Below, one piece after another: positions 1,871 to 8,159 of a DNA stretch of 64,000 nt. Position 1 is the first letter of the stretch; each line of letters starts with the position of its first letter. The translations under genes and the position numbers were made by a program. Source of the stretch: Bacteroidota bacterium (GTDB lineage Bacteria > Bacteroidota > Bacteroidia > UBA7662 > CANHCV01); the NCBI GenBank assembly GCA_947501265.1, contig CANMVY010000004.1, forward strand, positions 62,001 to 126,000, written 5' to 3'. The notes beneath the pieces are model-generated. The model did no database searches and was not told where the DNA came from. It saw nothing but the letters and a program-made list of their open reading frames with translations.

Positions 1871-2214
1871 GAGGTCCACAACTGAAAAACTGCAAGAAAC
1901 AACTTAGCCAATATTCCCGGTATTAATTGGTTTTGTAAACCTAAAGGATTGACTCAGGGAACGCCGGGAAATAAAGTTAAGTGGTCGAGCAGTTTCAATC
2001 GTTGCCAATTTTCTACAAAGAAAGTTGGGTCTTCCAAATTACTAAGGGCCAGCTATTCAGCAAGCCGAAAGACACGATTCTAAAGTCAAATCGAAGGCTT
2101 GAACACCCTCGGGTAACGTCTAAATTGGGCACATTTAAATTCCCTAAAATCAAACCATAAACTGTAAACATCTCTAAAAAAAAGAAGGCCCACTTTCGTA
2201 GGCCTTCTTTTTTT
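1871..2214 (+). ncRNA. Candidate structured RNA between tsaB and a terminator
   Basis: This 340-base stretch has no plausible ORF but contains nested complementary blocks: 1914-1920 with 1964-1970 (7 bp), 1902-1906 with 1978-1982, 1887-1893 with 1989-1995 (7 bp) and 1879-1882 with 2001-2004. Together they form one long interrupted rod. A second hairpin is 2061-2066 with 2096-2101, with 2075-2079 pairing 2089-2093 inside it. The stretch ends at a strong hairpin plus T tract (2181-2214). It could be an independent small RNA or the structured 3' end of the tsaB transcript. It lacks recognisable tmRNA, RNase P or SRP RNA signatures; a 6S-like rod is possible but unproven, and the strand is inferred from the terminator and tsaB. 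Confidence 0.3.
2181..2214. terminator. Bidirectional intrinsic terminator
   Basis: Perfect 10-bp stem AAAGAAGGCC (2181-2190) / GGCCTTCTTT (2201-2210) with a 10-base loop and T runs on both strands. On the plus strand it ends the tsaB or candidate-RNA transcript. On the minus strand it ends the tRNA-Met transcript after its three degenerate tandem copies. Confidence 0.85.
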
Positions 2215-2216
2215 CG

Positions 2217-2419
2217 CAGCGAAAGCGAGAGCTGAACTCGTGTCCGACAACTGGCGGATAGGAATCCGACCAGATTATTTTAGTAGCGAGGACGAGAGTT
2301 GAACTCGTGTCCGCCAACTGGCGGATATGAATCCGACCAGATTATTTTTTTGTAGCGAGGACGAGAGTTGAACTCGTGTCCGCCAACTGGCGGATAGGAA
2401 TCCGACCAGATTATTTTAG
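2217..2419 (-). repeat. Three tandem partial copies of the tRNA-Met 3' half
   Basis: Units at 2353-2419, 2284-2352 and 2217-2283 (in minus-strand reading order; 67-69 bp each) directly follow the 3' end of the intact tRNA. Each repeats the tRNA from the anticodon arm (GTCGGATTC) and the whole T arm and 3' acceptor strand (ACGAGTTCAACTCTCGT, CCTCGCTA). Each lacks the D arm and 5' acceptor strand. The 3' anticodon stem and variable loop are replaced by the palindrome TCCGCCAGTTGGCGGA (2379-2394, 2310-2325, and with one change 2243-2258). Only the middle unit keeps a CAT anticodon; the others read CCT there. The unit nearest the terminator is the most diverged. Confidence 0.85.
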
Positions 2420-2493
2420 TAGCGAGGACGAGAGTTGAACTCGTGACCTCCGGGTTATGAATCCGACGCTCTAACCAACTGAGCTACCTCGCC
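2420..2493 (-). tRNA. tRNA-Met (anticodon CAT)
   Basis: A 74-base cloverleaf on the minus strand: acceptor stem GGCGAGG / CCTCGCT with a G-T first pair and discriminator A, D arm GCTC...GAGC, anticodon loop TTCATAA, and T arm ACGAG-TTCAACT-CTCGT. CCA is not encoded. The anticodon CAT means elongator Met or, less likely, a lysidine-modified Ile2 species. A -7 promoter element lies 10 bases upstream. Anticodon stem pair 31-39 appears mismatched (A-C). Confidence 0.92.
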
Positions 2494-2542: not shown

Positions 2543-2579
2543 AAAAAAAAGGTGGACTTTCACAAGCCCACCTTTTTTT
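2543..2579 (-). terminator. Intrinsic terminator of the giant T9SS cargo gene
   Basis: A-rich run plus GGTGG (2543-2555) pairs with CCACC plus T run (2568-2579). It sits just past the stop of the minus-strand gene ending at 2593, and the minus-strand T tract follows the stem. Confidence 0.8.
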
Positions 2580-2592
2580 ATTCAATCTATGA

Positions 2593-5500
2593 TCAATGTT
2601 GAATGATCAATTTACCTTGAACCTTACTCTGATTTTCAGTGATGGTATAGAAGTAAACCCCATCTTTCAAGAAATGAACAGGAATGGTTTGAATGGCAGA
2701 ACCATTCAACTTCTCCTTCAATACCACTTGACCAAGGGCATTATGAATTTCAAACATGGCCTGATTCATAGAATTAAACTCAAGGGTAACTGTAGATTTT
2801 GCTGGATTTGGATAAACCAATACGCTTCCTCCATTAAAGTCATTCGAACCTACATTGGAAAGAATGTTAACACAAGTTGAATCATTTCCACGAGATGCGT
2901 CGTTGAATAAGGATGTTGAAACACACATTCTTACCGCTCCAGGCGCAACCAAGTTGTAATTATTGGTGAACTGGAACAAGGTAGAATCGCCAGGAAGAAT
3001 GTTTCCAGCAAACGACTGTGTTAAGGCATTTACTCCGTTTACAGTTAAGTTAACGTCGAATACATTCGCGGTGGTTGTTCCAAAGTTTTTGATCCAAACC
3101 TGAGGACGGATGGTTGCAGTTCTTGTACCTACGGTTGGAGATACTACACGTGCAATTCCAATGTCGGTGATGCTTCCGCTTCTTCTTTTCAATTCAAAAT
3201 TGATATCATCCAAAGCAACTTCACAGGTTAAAGCTGTTCCGCGAGTGGTGATGAATCGAACCTGGATGGTTTGTCCACGGTATGCGTTTAAATTGATAGA
3301 AGTATCTTCCCAAGGAGCATTGTTTGAAAGTTGTTGTTGGCCTATAATGGTCATCAAGCTTACCCAAGAGTTAGAACCTGAAACGCGAGCTTGAACTTCC
3401 AACTGAGTGATGGCTGCACCGTACATGTGGAACCAGAAGTTCAAACGAGCGGTGTCAATTCCTGATAAGTTAATGCAAGGGGAAGTAAGAATGGTAGAAT
3501 CACCAGCGAGACCCGTAACGCCATAGGAGTAAATGTATTTTCCAAGGTTCGTTCCCAAGGTTTTATCGACAGTTGGACCAGACAATGTAGTACCAACGCT
3601 TCCGCTTGCAATTTGGAAGCCATACGTTGAACCTGAGATGCTTTGAATTCTCCAACCTTTATTGATGTTGGAAGGAACAACAGAACCCTCAAAATTCTGG
3701 GTATCGTTAGCTACAATGGTTTGATTGGTAAACGTAGCCAGAAGTGTATCGTTAGAGCGCGTTTGATCGGTAGACAAACCGGTAATAATTCTGAAATTAT
3801 ACGGACCAGAAGCTGAGGTGTTCACGGTTGAAGCAAAAGTAAACGTGGCAGTATCTCCAGAATTAATTCGTGGAATCACTCCGTTAACGATCGTTCCCGA
3901 AGGCAACAACTGATAAGATACAGGGATATTGGTTTGAAGAGTAGTTCCAAAGTTCGCAACTCGAATTCGAACAGAATCAACCCCTGAAGGACAACTTCCA
4001 GAATTTGAAGGAGATACCAATGCAACAGGTGCAACATCATTTCCAACTTGGTTAAAGAATAAGAAATCATCTACAGCCATATCGCCCGTAAAAGAAGTGC
4101 CTCGCAAAGCAACAAATCGAATTTTTGTGGTCGTCAAAGCTCCTTTATTGAAGGTATAACGACGATTCACCCAAGGATCTGCCTCTGCCGTTTGAATTTG
4201 ACCCACCAAAGAATCAATCGTTACCCAAGTTGAACCATTCAAATACTGAACATACATATTTCCAATGGTAGCTCCAAAACGGTGAGTAAAGAAAGAAATA
4301 GCAGGATTCGTGATGTTGACGATATCAAAACATGGCGATTCTATGATCGCACTGTCATTTAAAGCTCCGTAAGAAGTCTCCGTATAAATGTATTTACCAG
4401 CTGAAGTTCCAAGGGTATTATCAACCGTTGGGCCAGTTACTGTAGAACTAGTAGAACCTGAAAAAAGATACCAACCATGAATATTTGCTCCATTTGGTCT
4501 AGCAGCCCAACCGGCTGGCAAGGTTCCTGTAGAATTTCCACCTCCTGAAACTCCCGATTCAAAATTTTCCGCAAATGGGAAAGTAGATACTACAGAATTT
4601 ACAATGGAAGCTCTAGTTGTATCATTCGTTCTTAAAGTATCGGCTGGAGTATCGGTGAAAGTCACTAAATTATAGGTTCCAAATGCCGACATATTGACAC
4701 GAGTAGTAAACGTAACGTGAATCGTATCGCCCGCACGAACGGAATCCGTAACCGTTTGAGTAACGGGAGTGCCGTTATTAACAATGTACCCAGCGGTAAA
4801 GTTTCTTGCAGTTGCCGAACCTTGGTTGCGAACCACCACTTTGATTTGCTGATTGGCCGACAAAACATTGCATCCAACTCCTGTAGAAGGAGAAATAAAT
4901 CCAGCCGACTGCAAATCCGTTGGAGGTGCTTGGTAAATTTCAATATCATCAATGGCGATGTATTGGTTTCCGCCTGTACCATTTTTGGGAGCACGGAATC
5001 GAATTTTTACAGAGGAACGAGCAAACTGATTTAAACTCACCACTCGACGCGCCCAAGGCTCAGCCTTGGTTATTTGTTGCTGCCCTACAATAGAATCAAT
5101 AACAATCCAATTTCCATTTCTTTCTGCCTCAACATAGAGCGTTCCAATGTTGTTTCCAAACATGTGGTACCAAAAGGCCAAACGTGGTGCAGCTACGTTG
5201 GTGAAATCGAAACAAGGAGAAGCAACAATGGCATCTGTCCCAGTTCCTGCACCGTAAGTTACCAAATAGTTTCCTCCACCCGCAATTCCTGTTGTATGGT
5301 CAAAACCAGGACCGGAATTGGTGGTATAATTGCCATTGAAAGCAAACCATCTCCAAACAAAACCATTGTCAGGAATAACGTTCCAACCCAACACTGAGGT
5401 TCGAGCACCTGGACCTGTAGCCTGTCCAACAAATGCTTGAACGTAAGGGAAGGTGGTTACAATGGGATTGAAATAGCTGCGAGATGCGGTGTCATTGATA

Positions 5501-8079
5501 AAATTGGTATCGCCATTACGGATGGACCAAACACGCAACGTGTAGTTTCCACCCAATGCCATGTTTGCACGGGCATTCAACATGGTGTACTGAATAACTG
5601 TTCCACTTGGAATGATGGTACGAATGGTATCACGACCAATCAATGTTCCATTCAATTCAGCAACAATGATGATATTATTTACAGCGTTGGTTCCAAAACT
5701 TCCAACAGAAATACGAATGGGCTCAGCGTTTGAAAATCCACAAGCTGCAGATCCTGTCGTTGGGGTATCGATACTAACAACACCAGCATCATTCGAAATG
5801 GGAGTAAATTCATAAGCACCAATATCCGGAGTAACGGCATTGCGGCCAACCCCTAAAATATCATCGGTAACATAAGAAGGTGAACCCAAGTTATTGAACG
5901 ATGAGATGGTAGGAATAGGATTCGATAATGAGATGATTTGTGGGTTTACAGTAAGTGAAGCATTATCCTGATTGTAGGTTCCTCTCCAGTTTAGGAAGGT
6001 AGGATAATCGGTTGTTCCAACACGGAATAACTGATTGGTTCCACCATTGATCCAATAATTGTTATTGTCTGAAATCAATGACTTTACAGCGAAGGTATCG
6101 TTGAAAACCATTGCACGGTAGGTTCCATCCAAAGTAAATCCAGAACCAGCTTTCACCACAATGTTGTTATTGATGAATTCCAAACCGCTTAATGCAAACG
6201 CCCGTTGACCAAAGGTTGAACGATTGAAATAGAAAACAGCTACACCGTTATTTGCAGTATTGTTACTGTTGGTTGTAACATTGATGGTATTGTGAACAAA
6301 AGATAGAAAATCGGGAAGAGTATCCACCGTTGCCGTAGAATCTTGACGAATATTGGTGTAAACTACAATGGGATTTGAAGTAGTGTTGAAGTTACAAGAG
6401 AAAACGTTGTTGTAAAACTTGTTTGGCGTAGATGCATCACCGTCCATCGCATTCAAATACAAGGCATAGTTTCCTTGTTGACCCAAAAACTTGTTGTTGT
6501 AAAAATTAACGTTATCGCAACTAATCATGTAACCACCGTATGAAAATGTAGAATAACCTGTAAAATTGTCTTCAAAACGATTTCCAAACATGGTTAGATT
6601 CGATTGGTACAAAATGTACGCCCCGTAATAAGCTGAGTTCTTGATGGTATTATTCGAAATTTCGTTGGTGTTATCGCGTGAAGAAACACTAGAACCCGAA
6701 ACATACAAACCGTAGTAACCATTTTCAATGGTATTGTTGGTAATAACACTGTTACCAGTTCGCTCGATGTTCAACGTTCGATTGAACGTGTTTCCTCCAT
6801 TTAAATTGTGAATGAAGCGACATCCTTCCACACGAATATCGGTACATCCCGTAATATTCAAAGGATAATCACCCGTGGCAAAAGTTGTTCCCGTACGAGA
6901 AATCGTTAAGTCATTCAAATGCACATTCTGAACGTTATCCAATCGGAAAACGCATCCCGTAGGATTGGTAATCACCACATCTTGGGCACGACCCGTAGCC
7001 GATTCAAAGTTCAAAATGTACGAATTCAATCCTGCGATTGGTCCACGCAAGGTGTGGGTACCGGTATACGTGCCCGAATCAATTCGAAACGTTACGTTTC
7101 CTGCAATACCACCGCACTGAACCGCAGCAATGGCATCAGCCACCGTTCTAAAATTCGTTCCAACTCGGTTACCAACCGTATAAGTTCCTCCATTCATCGC
7201 AAAACAGATGGTGGTGTACAAGGTGTCGTTGAATGGATTCAAATCGGGATTCACGTTATTCGGCCCCTTCACCCAAGTTTTCAAAACGTGTTGACCCGTT
7301 GTAGGCAAAGAAAGTGTACCAGGGAAATTGTGGGTGGCTGTTTGTAAGGTAGAAATATTACCCGACCAAGAGCCCGTTATGGGGGTATTGTTGTTGAATT
7401 GATATCCAACCGATGCCGTAGTGATGTTATTGGAAGCGTTGTTGCGAATTTCTAGAGCAACAGGAACATTCTGCCCGCCAATAAACGGAGCTACTGGAGC
7501 AATTAAACGTGAAACACCTGCATCCGTTCCATTTGCAAAGCGATAAGAAATCGCACCGTTGAATTGGCGAGGATGGTTCACAGGCGTTGGCATGTTACCA
7601 CCATATCCAATGGTTTGACCCGTACGGATCACCAAGTCGTTGTTGGCAAATGTGTCTTGGTTGGATGCATTCCACGTGGTGTAGGTTACCCCAACGTTTC
7701 CACTGGTTGGAGAACCAATGTAAAAACCGTAGGTCTGTCCACCAGAAAGCAGGGGCGACATTGCACCGGAAACGGGAACACCGATGAAACCAGCTCCAGA
7801 AATTGAATAACTTGGAACCAACTCCACCCAGTTGGGCGCCTGAATAGGAAAACTAGAGGTACCATTGATCGGAGTGGGAGAATACCAAACCGAAGCGGTT
7901 CCAGATCCACTAAACTGACACCAAACAGTATCTACATACAACCCAACTTTTGGCGATAGGTTGAACGTAATACCACCAGCACCATTCCCCCCTGTTAAAG
8001 GCGGAACAGTTGATAAATATTGCCCTTTTGAAGCAAAAACGACAAAGAACAATGTGAAAACAAGGAATAGTTTTTTCAT
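2593..8079 (-). CDS. Giant secreted T9SS cargo protein with beta-helix and repeated jelly-roll domains
   Basis: Protein of 1828 aa starting MKKLFLVFTLFFVVFASKG, a clear signal peptide. A longer in-frame start 24 codons upstream would precede it and is unlikely. About residues 330-700 are Asn-rich right-handed beta-helix repeats (NNTIENGYYGLYV, SNNTIKNSAYYG). Three MAM / choice-of-anchor-like units follow, each with SPCFD...FW(Y/F)HM(F/Y)G...VDDI-type signatures, separated by CARDB-like adhesion domains (VSPSTGVGC...VRNQG). The C terminus (VYPNPAKSTVTLEF to GVYFYTITENQ...KLIIQH) is a T9SS type A sorting domain, so it is predicted to cross the outer membrane and be attached or released. Function is probably surface adhesion or polysaccharide contact; no catalytic motif is recognised. 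It is monocistronic with its own terminator. Confidence 0.88.
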   Translation of the reverse strand: MKKLFLVFTLFFVVFASKGQYLSTVPPLTGGNGAGGITFNLSPKVGLYVDTVWCQFSGSGTASVWYSPTPINGTSSFPIQAPNWVELVPSYSISGAGFIGVPVSGAMSPLLSGGQTYGFYIGSPTSGNVGVTYTTWNASNQDTFANNDLVIRTGQTIGYGGNMPTPVNHPRQFNGAISYRFANGTDAGVSRLIAPVAPFIGGQNVPVALEIRNNASNNITTASVGYQFNNNTPITGSWSGNISTLQTATHNFPGTLSLPTTGQHVLKTWVKGPNNVNPDLNPFNDTLYTTICFAMNGGTYTVGNRVGTNFRTVADAIAAVQCGGIAGNVTFRIDSGTYTGTHTLRGPIAGLNSYILNFESATGRAQDVVITNPTGCVFRLDNVQNVHLNDLTISRTGTTFATGDYPLNITGCTDIRVEGCRFIHNLNGGNTFNRTLNIERTGNSVITNNTIENGYYGLYVSGSSVSSRDNTNEISNNTIKNSAYYGAYILYQSNLTMFGNRFEDNFTGYSTFSYGGYMISCDNVNFYNNKFLGQQGNYALYLNAMDGDASTPNKFYNNVFSCNFNTTSNPIVVYTNIRQDSTATVDTLPDFLSFVHNTINVTTNSNNTANNGVAVFYFNRSTFGQRAFALSGLEFINNNIVVKAGSGFTLDGTYRAMVFNDTFAVKSLISDNNNYWINGGTNQLFRVGTTDYPTFLNWRGTYNQDNASLTVNPQIISLSNPIPTISSFNNLGSPSYVTDDILGVGRNAVTPDIGAYEFTPISNDAGVVSIDTPTTGSAACGFSNAEPIRISVGSFGTNAVNNIIIVAELNGTLIGRDTIRTIIPSGTVIQYTMLNARANMALGGNYTLRVWSIRNGDTNFINDTASRSYFNPIVTTFPYVQAFVGQATGPGARTSVLGWNVIPDNGFVWRWFAFNGNYTTNSGPGFDHTTGIAGGGNYLVTYGAGTGTDAIVASPCFDFTNVAAPRLAFWYHMFGNNIGTLYVEAERNGNWIVIDSIVGQQQITKAEPWARRVVSLNQFARSSVKIRFRAPKNGTGGNQYIAIDDIEIYQAPPTDLQSAGFISPSTGVGCNVLSANQQIKVVVRNQGSATARNFTAGYIVNNGTPVTQTVTDSVRAGDTIHVTFTTRVNMSAFGTYNLVTFTDTPADTLRTNDTTRASIVNSVVSTFPFAENFESGVSGGGNSTGTLPAGWAARPNGANIHGWYLFSGSTSSTVTGPTVDNTLGTSAGKYIYTETSYGALNDSAIIESPCFDIVNITNPAISFFTHRFGATIGNMYVQYLNGSTWVTIDSLVGQIQTAEADPWVNRRYTFNKGALTTTKIRFVALRGTSFTGDMAVDDFLFFNQVGNDVAPVALVSPSNSGSCPSGVDSVRIRVANFGTTLQTNIPVSYQLLPSGTIVNGVIPRINSGDTATFTFASTVNTSASGPYNFRIITGLSTDQTRSNDTLLATFTNQTIVANDTQNFEGSVVPSNINKGWRIQSISGSTYGFQIASGSVGTTLSGPTVDKTLGTNLGKYIYSYGVTGLAGDSTILTSPCINLSGIDTARLNFWFHMYGAAITQLEVQARVSGSNSWVSLMTIIGQQQLSNNAPWEDTSINLNAYRGQTIQVRFITTRGTALTCEVALDDINFELKRRSGSITDIGIARVVSPTVGTRTATIRPQVWIKNFGTTTANVFDVNLTVNGVNALTQSFAGNILPGDSTLFQFTNNYNLVAPGAVRMCVSTSLFNDASRGNDSTCVNILSNVGSNDFNGGSVLVYPNPAKSTVTLEFNSMNQAMFEIHNALGQVVLKEKLNGSAIQTIPVHFLKDGVYFYTITENQSKVQGKLIIQH

Positions 8080-8159
8080 GTATGGTAGATTTTGTGGTGA
8101 AATTACGAAAGAAATGTGTATTTCACTCCACCACATTTCCATAAATTCCAAAAAAATGT

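Follow-up and report, generated by a model that had tools for sequence, protein, structure and literature searches.

A tandem array of tRNA-Met 3′ ends in a Bacteroidota genome as a probable relic of a tRNA-linked GIY-YIG nuclease element

Introduction

Mobile DNA is well known for inserting at tRNA genes. The locus described here raises the question of what kind of event leaves an intact tRNA-Met gene followed by three tandem copies of its own 3′ half, each with a short palindrome at the same internal position. It lies in a stretch of 64,000 nucleotides of a Bacteroidota bacterium (assembly GCA_947501265.1, contig CANMVY010000004.1, positions 62,001 to 126,000), which we refer to as the window. 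An initial annotation, made from the letters of the window, had offered three ideas: a tRNA-derived decoy or small RNA array, debris of repeated integration at a tRNA 3′ end, or a mobile palindrome that spread together with the tRNA tail.

Structure of the tRNA-Met locus

On the minus strand, the locus runs from a single intact tRNA-Met(CAT) through three units of 67/69/67 nt and a terminator-like hairpin to a 26-nt remnant of a nuclease gene. Its features are as follows.

2544..2579, minus strand: terminator-like hairpin 5′ of the tRNA, probably belonging to the preceding gene
2419..2493, minus strand: tRNA-Met(CAT), intact, head of the array (ARAGORN and Rfam; Rfam score 67.6 bits)
2352..2418, minus strand: unit 1 (67 nt), made up of spacer, TGGTCGGATTCCTA, palindrome and T arm/acceptor 3′ strand
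2379..2394, minus strand: unit 1 palindrome, TCCGCCAGTTGGCGGA
2283..2351, minus strand: unit 2 (69 nt), 94% identical to unit 1
2310..2325, minus strand: unit 2 palindrome, TCCGCCAGTTGGCGGA
2216..2282, minus strand: unit 3 (67 nt), decayed, with 5 changes in T arm/acceptor and a damaged palindrome
2243..2258, minus strand: unit 3 palindrome, TCCGCCAGTTGTCGGA, one mismatch
2177..2214, minus strand: terminator-like hairpin after unit 3, with 17-nt arms that are 94% complementary, then a T run
2146..2171, minus strand: remnant of the 5′ end of a Met-type GIY-YIG gene, 26 nt, ATGTTTACAGTTTATGGTTTGATTTT, which aligns with ATGTTTACGGTTTATGCGTTGTTTTC of the sister species G002

The tRNA-Met and its three tandem 3′-half copies with a palindrome are real. 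ARAGORN and Rfam both find the tRNA; a repeat search gives the same spacing as the unit borders (2418-2352, 2351-2283 and 2282-2216 on the minus strand), and the tRNA was the only significant Rfam match over the locus. Each unit consists of an A-rich spacer followed by TCTGGTCGGATTCMTA + TCCGCCAGTTGGCGGA + CACGAGTTCAACTCTCGTCCTCGCTAC and keeps the 5′ side of the anticodon stem with the loop (TCGGATTCMTA), the 16-nt palindrome, the T arm and the 3′ strand of the acceptor. The palindrome follows CATA and stands in for 10 tRNA nucleotides (ACCCGGAGGT). It replaces the same tRNA segment in all three copies, as initially annotated, but the statement that every copy carries the same palindrome has to be softened for unit 3, where it is damaged. 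Within the window, the palindrome with up to 3 mismatches occurs at 3 places, all in the array, with 0.36 expected by chance.

It is plausible from this layout that the tRNA and the units are carried on a single transcript, with the array bounded by the hairpins at 2579-2544 and 2214-2177. A promoter scan of the region before the tRNA returned no sigma-70-type site, the consensus used being of the sigma-70 type, from which Bacteroidota promoters differ. An alternative hairpin can be drawn at 2336-2418 (minus strand) and in the matching part of each unit, in which the tRNA piece pairs with the left arm of the palindrome. It competes with the palindrome hairpin in the window units, and formation of one excludes the other. 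Beside the array, a frame of 1852 aa (2593-8151, minus strand) encodes a very long secreted repeat-rich protein, the tail of which resembles a type IX secretion sorting domain.

Traces of a nuclease gene in the same genus

A sister species of the same genus (G002) has the same tRNA-Met followed by three 69-nt units, with 90% identity over the whole stretch. All of its copies carry the palindrome TCCGCCGGCTGGCGGA where the window has TCCGCCAGTTGGCGGA; the copies have therefore been homogenised within each genome. Intragenomic copies are more alike than copies from different species, with the decayed unit 3 being the least similar throughout. The initial annotation had seen T-arm conservation beyond what neutral decay would leave, and this claim fails: between units 1 and 3 there are five differences in the T arm and acceptor, and in G002 the T arm is broken in one of the three copies.

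In G002, the same terminator-like hairpin separates the array from a small GIY-YIG gene, the reading frame of which starts MFTVYALFSDRCDRLYID; the G002 copy has YID in place of YIG. On a second G002 contig, two further units directly follow the 3′ end of a GIY-YIG gene; this piece may be an ectopic copy or the far side of an assembly gap. The end of the gene (TTGAAATAGTTGGTCGG) and the start of the unit (GAAAAAAATAGTTGGTCGG) have AAATAGTTGG in common, which suggests that the units were born by internal deletion at an A-run. It is through this sister species and the short 26-nt remnant that the window units can be joined to the nuclease. No intact Met-type nuclease is left in the genome to which the window belongs (G000), and we therefore regard the window array as a relic.

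The same genome contains a second tRNA-tail array, located at tRNA-Ala(GGC) on contigs C4 (1-330, minus strand) and C3 (1-671) and comprising loci L110 and L270-L273. Its units of ~100 bp each carry a hairpin, TCCCGAAATGCWTCGGGA, and their own terminator, and are followed by an intact GIY-YIG gene (C3, 423-671). Both contigs end in this array, and the assembly is broken there. Comparison of the Ala-type GIY-YIG gene between G000 and G002 gave a dS of 0.38 and a dN of 0.05; this nuclease gene is under purifying selection in the genome studied here. Gene-less units like those of the window are also found at tRNA-Met in another genome (G145, 67-nt spacing) and, at ~100 bp, at tRNA-Ala in this genus.

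Nuclease genes behind tRNA genes across the phylum

Small GIY-YIG genes were gathered from relatives by protein similarity alone, which yielded 147 loci, 110 of them outside and 37 inside a generic clade. A tRNA 3′ end lies at most 200 nt upstream on the same strand at 72 of the 110 loci outside the generic clade and at 0 of the 37 inside it (Fisher p = 5e-14; ~0.15 expected by chance). Most nuclease genes outside the generic clade are situated 15-130 nt behind a same-strand tRNA, often with a displaced 3′ piece of that tRNA on the far side of the gene; such a piece of the same tRNA was found downstream at 48 loci, which cover 12 amino-acid types. The other 38 of the 110 loci are without a tRNA within 200 nt, some being at contig ends, and some tRNA-adjacent loci are without a displaced 3′ piece. 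Among the best matches of a phylum-wide search, 19 of 25 loci were positioned behind a tRNA, and a search with one protein led to 8 named loci, including a Ferruginibacter MAG carrying the same palindrome. The nuclease tree clusters by target tRNA, with 42 label changes compared to 69.3 in shuffles (0 of 200 as low).

A complete element (~330-460 bp) reads tRNA, terminator, GIY-YIG gene (~85 codons), tRNA piece (7-25 nt), hairpin and 3′ part of the same tRNA. These units encode only the GIY-YIG protein, and no integrase was found within them. PF01541 (GIY-YIG) scores above the cut-off at complete-element loci, the window itself having only the 26-nt remnant, and the active-site residues Y5, Y16, G18, R26 and E63 are invariant in an alignment of ten diverse members. 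UPF0213 and SLX1 are the nearest solved chains to the protein. PHROGs has no family for the nuclease, and its sole match in NCBIfam, to group I intron endonucleases, is below the cut-off. Phage collections gave two weak partial matches and no convincing phage copy, and plasmid collections gave weak matches only; the elements studied are chromosomal.

The hairpin at the junction is a general property of these loci: 42 of the 47 that could be scored have a perfect inverted repeat there whose arms measure 6 nt or more, compared with 3.2% of shuffles and 2 of 47 nearby control windows. Its position depends on the tRNA and on the nuclease clade. In Met and fMet it comes after CATA, and for Val, Arg, Lys, Pro and Ala it has mostly taken the place of the anticodon arm. 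The main Asn clade has it where the 5′ side of this arm would be, whereas at some loci for Val, Asp and Thr it sits in the T arm. Without exception, the tRNA piece that leads into the hairpin agrees with the sequence immediately upstream of the site. Loop length varies from 0 to 6 nt across junctions, and at 20 Met-site junctions changes on both sides were seen in 5 of 6 stem pairs, a count that is partly circular as these junctions were chosen for palindromes (arms of at least 5), the test at 47 loci being the unselected one. This variation would point to a folded strand, either single-stranded DNA or RNA, over a fixed double-stranded site.

Complete elements, some of them amplified, stand at many different tRNA genes of the Bacteroidota. 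The palindrome is a part of the unit at every tRNA site, which agrees with one half of the idea of a mobile palindrome, but it is not dispersed in this genome. Outside the array, CCGCCANNTGGCGG has one exact occurrence in the 2.3 Mb genome, inside an intrinsic terminator, and a dispersed REP-like palindrome was rejected on these grounds.

L127, L128 and L132 form a separate supported GIY-YIG clade behind tRNA-Asp, tRNA-Ala and tmRNA, with no displaced 3′ piece detected. At L093 and L111, near tRNA-Arg and tRNA-Leu, displaced tRNA tails are accompanied by a different junction repeat of the GGCAGGCAGG type.

Gain, loss and multiplication at tRNA sites

Within one genus, a single tRNA-Met locus with matching flanks is met in three states: G112 has it empty, G076 occupied and G033 decayed. 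In the occupied allele, the host terminator comes after the displaced 3′ piece and the element's own terminator after the head tRNA. A second genus offers 30 species for comparison at the fMet site, which is occupied in G269, G323 and G332 and holds a damaged or partial element in two more, while the rest are without the GIY-YIG gene. This pattern of gain, decay and loss is as expected of a selfish element. Given complete elements in relatives and the empty, occupied and decayed sites of one genus, debris of repeated integration at a tRNA 3′ end comes closest of the three ideas first put forward.

The head tRNA is identical at the site between occupied and empty alleles of congeners. A recoded head tRNA, for which the element would supply a cut-resistant 3′ half, is not supported by this comparison.

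Tandem arrays are common in the family. G003 has an array of three ~369-bp units with nuclease genes, and ten tandem 457-bp tRNA-fMet/GIY-YIG repeats are found in G125 (L176, G125:C9:904500-912500); in a comparison of nine of them, eight were identical and one was 99.6% identical. Every 457-bp repeat of L176 also has a second, diverged tRNA tail.

Discussion

Among systems studied by experiment, SegB of T-even phages comes closest (PMC13096335). This free-standing GIY-YIG homing endonuclease is reported to cleave within tRNA genes, to occur widely beside them and to bring about tandem amplification of the tRNA-segB segment in a recombination-dependent manner. Like SegB, the genes described here lie beside tRNA genes of many isotypes, and their loci are amplified in tandem, with the nuclease as a putative cause by analogy; the insertion site inside the tRNA would be consistent with SegB-type cleavage within tRNA genes. 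Unlike SegB, they reside in bacterial chromosomes and encode a protein of only ~85 aa, each unit has a hairpin and a displaced tRNA 3′ piece, and the tRNA is not amplified whole. The second-best parallel is the Ssn/NTS pair of Neisseria, in which a small GIY-YIG nuclease, Ssn, is paired with the NTS repeat, which is dispersed in hundreds of copies and not known to be linked to tRNA genes. The two systems may have in common a small GIY-YIG nuclease that goes with a palindromic repeat of the TCCC..GGGA kind, but the hairpin here is confined to a single position in a single tRNA and adjoins the nuclease gene. Because carriage by phages, as in SegB, was not found here and the other decisive properties, such as cleavage inside tRNA genes or sequence-specific cleavage of single-stranded DNA, are at most predicted for our loci, we describe the family as free-standing GIY-YIG elements linked to tRNA genes and do not assign it to SegB or Ssn.

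Other systems share single traits. In the tyrT operon of E. coli, the rtT repeats measure ~178 bp, 19 bp of which come from the tRNA, and are not known to have a hairpin replacement or a nuclease; like the window units, they are tandem repeats 3′ of a tRNA that each include a tRNA 3′ end within the tRNA transcription unit, but the units here have the hairpin replacement and a link to a nuclease, and the Rfam RtT family did not match the locus even at an E-value of 10. Group I introns with homing endonucleases reside in tRNA anticodon loops and so likewise represent a selfish nuclease aimed at the anticodon region without destruction of the gene. In our case nothing interrupts the head tRNA, a further 3′ part lies displaced from it, and no group I intron was matched by Rfam at the locus. 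IS200/IS605 and REP/RAYT systems have subterminal hairpins and short target sequences beside the hairpin, and their gene-less derivatives spread. All three traits recur here, but without a Y1 transposase and with the hairpin strictly at the tRNA site. Prophages and genomic islands that insert at the 3′ end of a tRNA gene restore the tRNA and leave a repeated 3′ end, as do the elements here, but the latter have no integrase, are 10-100 times smaller, and their repeat starts at the hairpin inside the tRNA.

We consider it highly probable that the array in the window is what remains of a selfish element that was built on a small free-standing GIY-YIG nuclease, behaved in a homing-like manner and was amplified by nuclease-provoked recombination. 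The anatomy, the tie of each clade to one tRNA site, precise insertion with the tRNA restored, tandem amplification and decay can be read from the genomes compared. Relative to an empty site, insertion interrupts the tRNA at a fixed place and restores it at once, because a 3′ part flanks the insert on both sides. For cutting, homing and nuclease-driven amplification, we infer from the anatomy and the SegB parallel that the nuclease most likely cuts or nicks at or near the tRNA site or the hairpin, that repair by homologous recombination would copy the element into empty tRNA alleles, and that the repeated 3′ parts would let recombination multiply it in tandem. A hairpin that replaces the site would shield the displaced copy from being a target; alternatively, it may be the nuclease's own binding structure. 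Some observations count against this proposal: occupied alleles retain an intact site in the head tRNA, so that a nuclease that simply cuts this site would turn on its host as well; some loci are without a displaced 3′ piece or a tRNA within 200 nt; and the remnant that joins the window units to the nuclease is short. The Met-type copy of this species has lost its nuclease. As the sister species suggests, a deletion from the A-run after the tRNA to the last codons of the nuclease gene would have produced the gene-less 67-69-nt units, which would then have drifted while being homogenised as tandem repeats. The array is probably without benefit to the host. By itself the feature in the window is ordinary debris, yet debris of an element family for which we found no description: searches of a largely openly available literature gave no account of GIY-YIG/tRNA-tail arrays in bacterial chromosomes.

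One alternative, which we hold to be somewhat doubtful, concerns the mechanism and not the nature of the relic. Recognition of the hairpin by the nuclease could take place on single-stranded DNA, much as with Ssn and NTS, and the element could move or amplify via single-stranded DNA with the tRNA piece marking the target, somewhat like IS200/IS605 and REP. The shape of the hairpin is kept while its sequence and loop length vary, with paired changes at the selected Met-site junctions and the hairpin itself recovered in the unselected test, and the tRNA piece that precedes it is always equal to the sequence just upstream of the site. The dRS3 repeat class of Neisseria, ATTCCC(N8)GGGAAT, is alike in shape (PMC3898611). 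Against this stands that no HUH/Y1 transposase is found within the ~330-460-bp units.

The remaining explanations concern the nature of the array, and we give little credence to any of them. A tRNA-derived regulatory or decoy RNA array, co-transcribed with the tRNA and kept for an RNA function, would fit the position of the units between one tRNA and one terminator with none in between, as well as the folding of the transcript, which is better than that of shuffles (z -4.6, in a sequence that includes the real tRNA and perfect hairpins). Such a function is nevertheless very improbable: T arms are decayed or broken in unit 3 and in one G002 unit, the greater similarity within genomes than between species fits tandem homogenisation rather than selection, and joint transcription is not a conserved feature because in most relatives each unit has a protein gene and its own terminator. 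Repeats of a tRNA 3′ end are established as the usual trace of prophage or island integration by a tyrosine integrase, but ordinary debris of this sort is a most unlikely source for tandem identical units with a repeat that begins inside the tRNA at a hairpin, for complete units with a GIY-YIG gene alone and no integrase, and for a family that found only weak matches in phage and plasmid collections. Replication slippage is known to make tandem repeats grow and shrink, and the homogenised window units probably did so; as a full account, with plain duplications of the tRNA tail and unrelated nucleases nearby, it has hardly any probability, as it leaves unexplained why many families have the hairpin at one and the same tRNA position, the match between clade and target, and the series of empty, occupied and decayed sites.

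The broader reading of the family as a phylum-wide class of minimal chromosomal selfish elements is tentative, and we place it just short of probable. Such elements, made up of a ~85-aa nuclease, a hairpin and a tRNA 3′ piece, would invade and repair essential tRNA genes in one step, with one lineage per tRNA and site, multiply in tandem and shed gene-less mini-units. If true, they would be nature's counterpart to a 'home and rescue' drive. Known elements of tRNA genes use large integrases or introns, whereas here one tiny nuclease gene appears to be enough, and almost any tRNA gene in the phylum could apparently be occupied without killing the host. They would then offer a simple system for studying how an essential target survives a selfish nuclease, what sets off tandem amplification and which role a conserved hairpin plays. 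They would further account for many proteins annotated as 'GIY-YIG nuclease family proteins' in genomes of Bacteroidota and for stray tRNA fragments there, as well as for assembly breaks at some tRNA genes.

A further set of loci from one genus (L243, L244, L256 and L267) consists of pieces without a GIY-YIG gene, located ~150 nt behind tRNA-fMet. In these pieces the acceptor end follows a T-arm hairpin of the GGATYAGC..GCTAATCC kind, and they are perhaps another miniature element.
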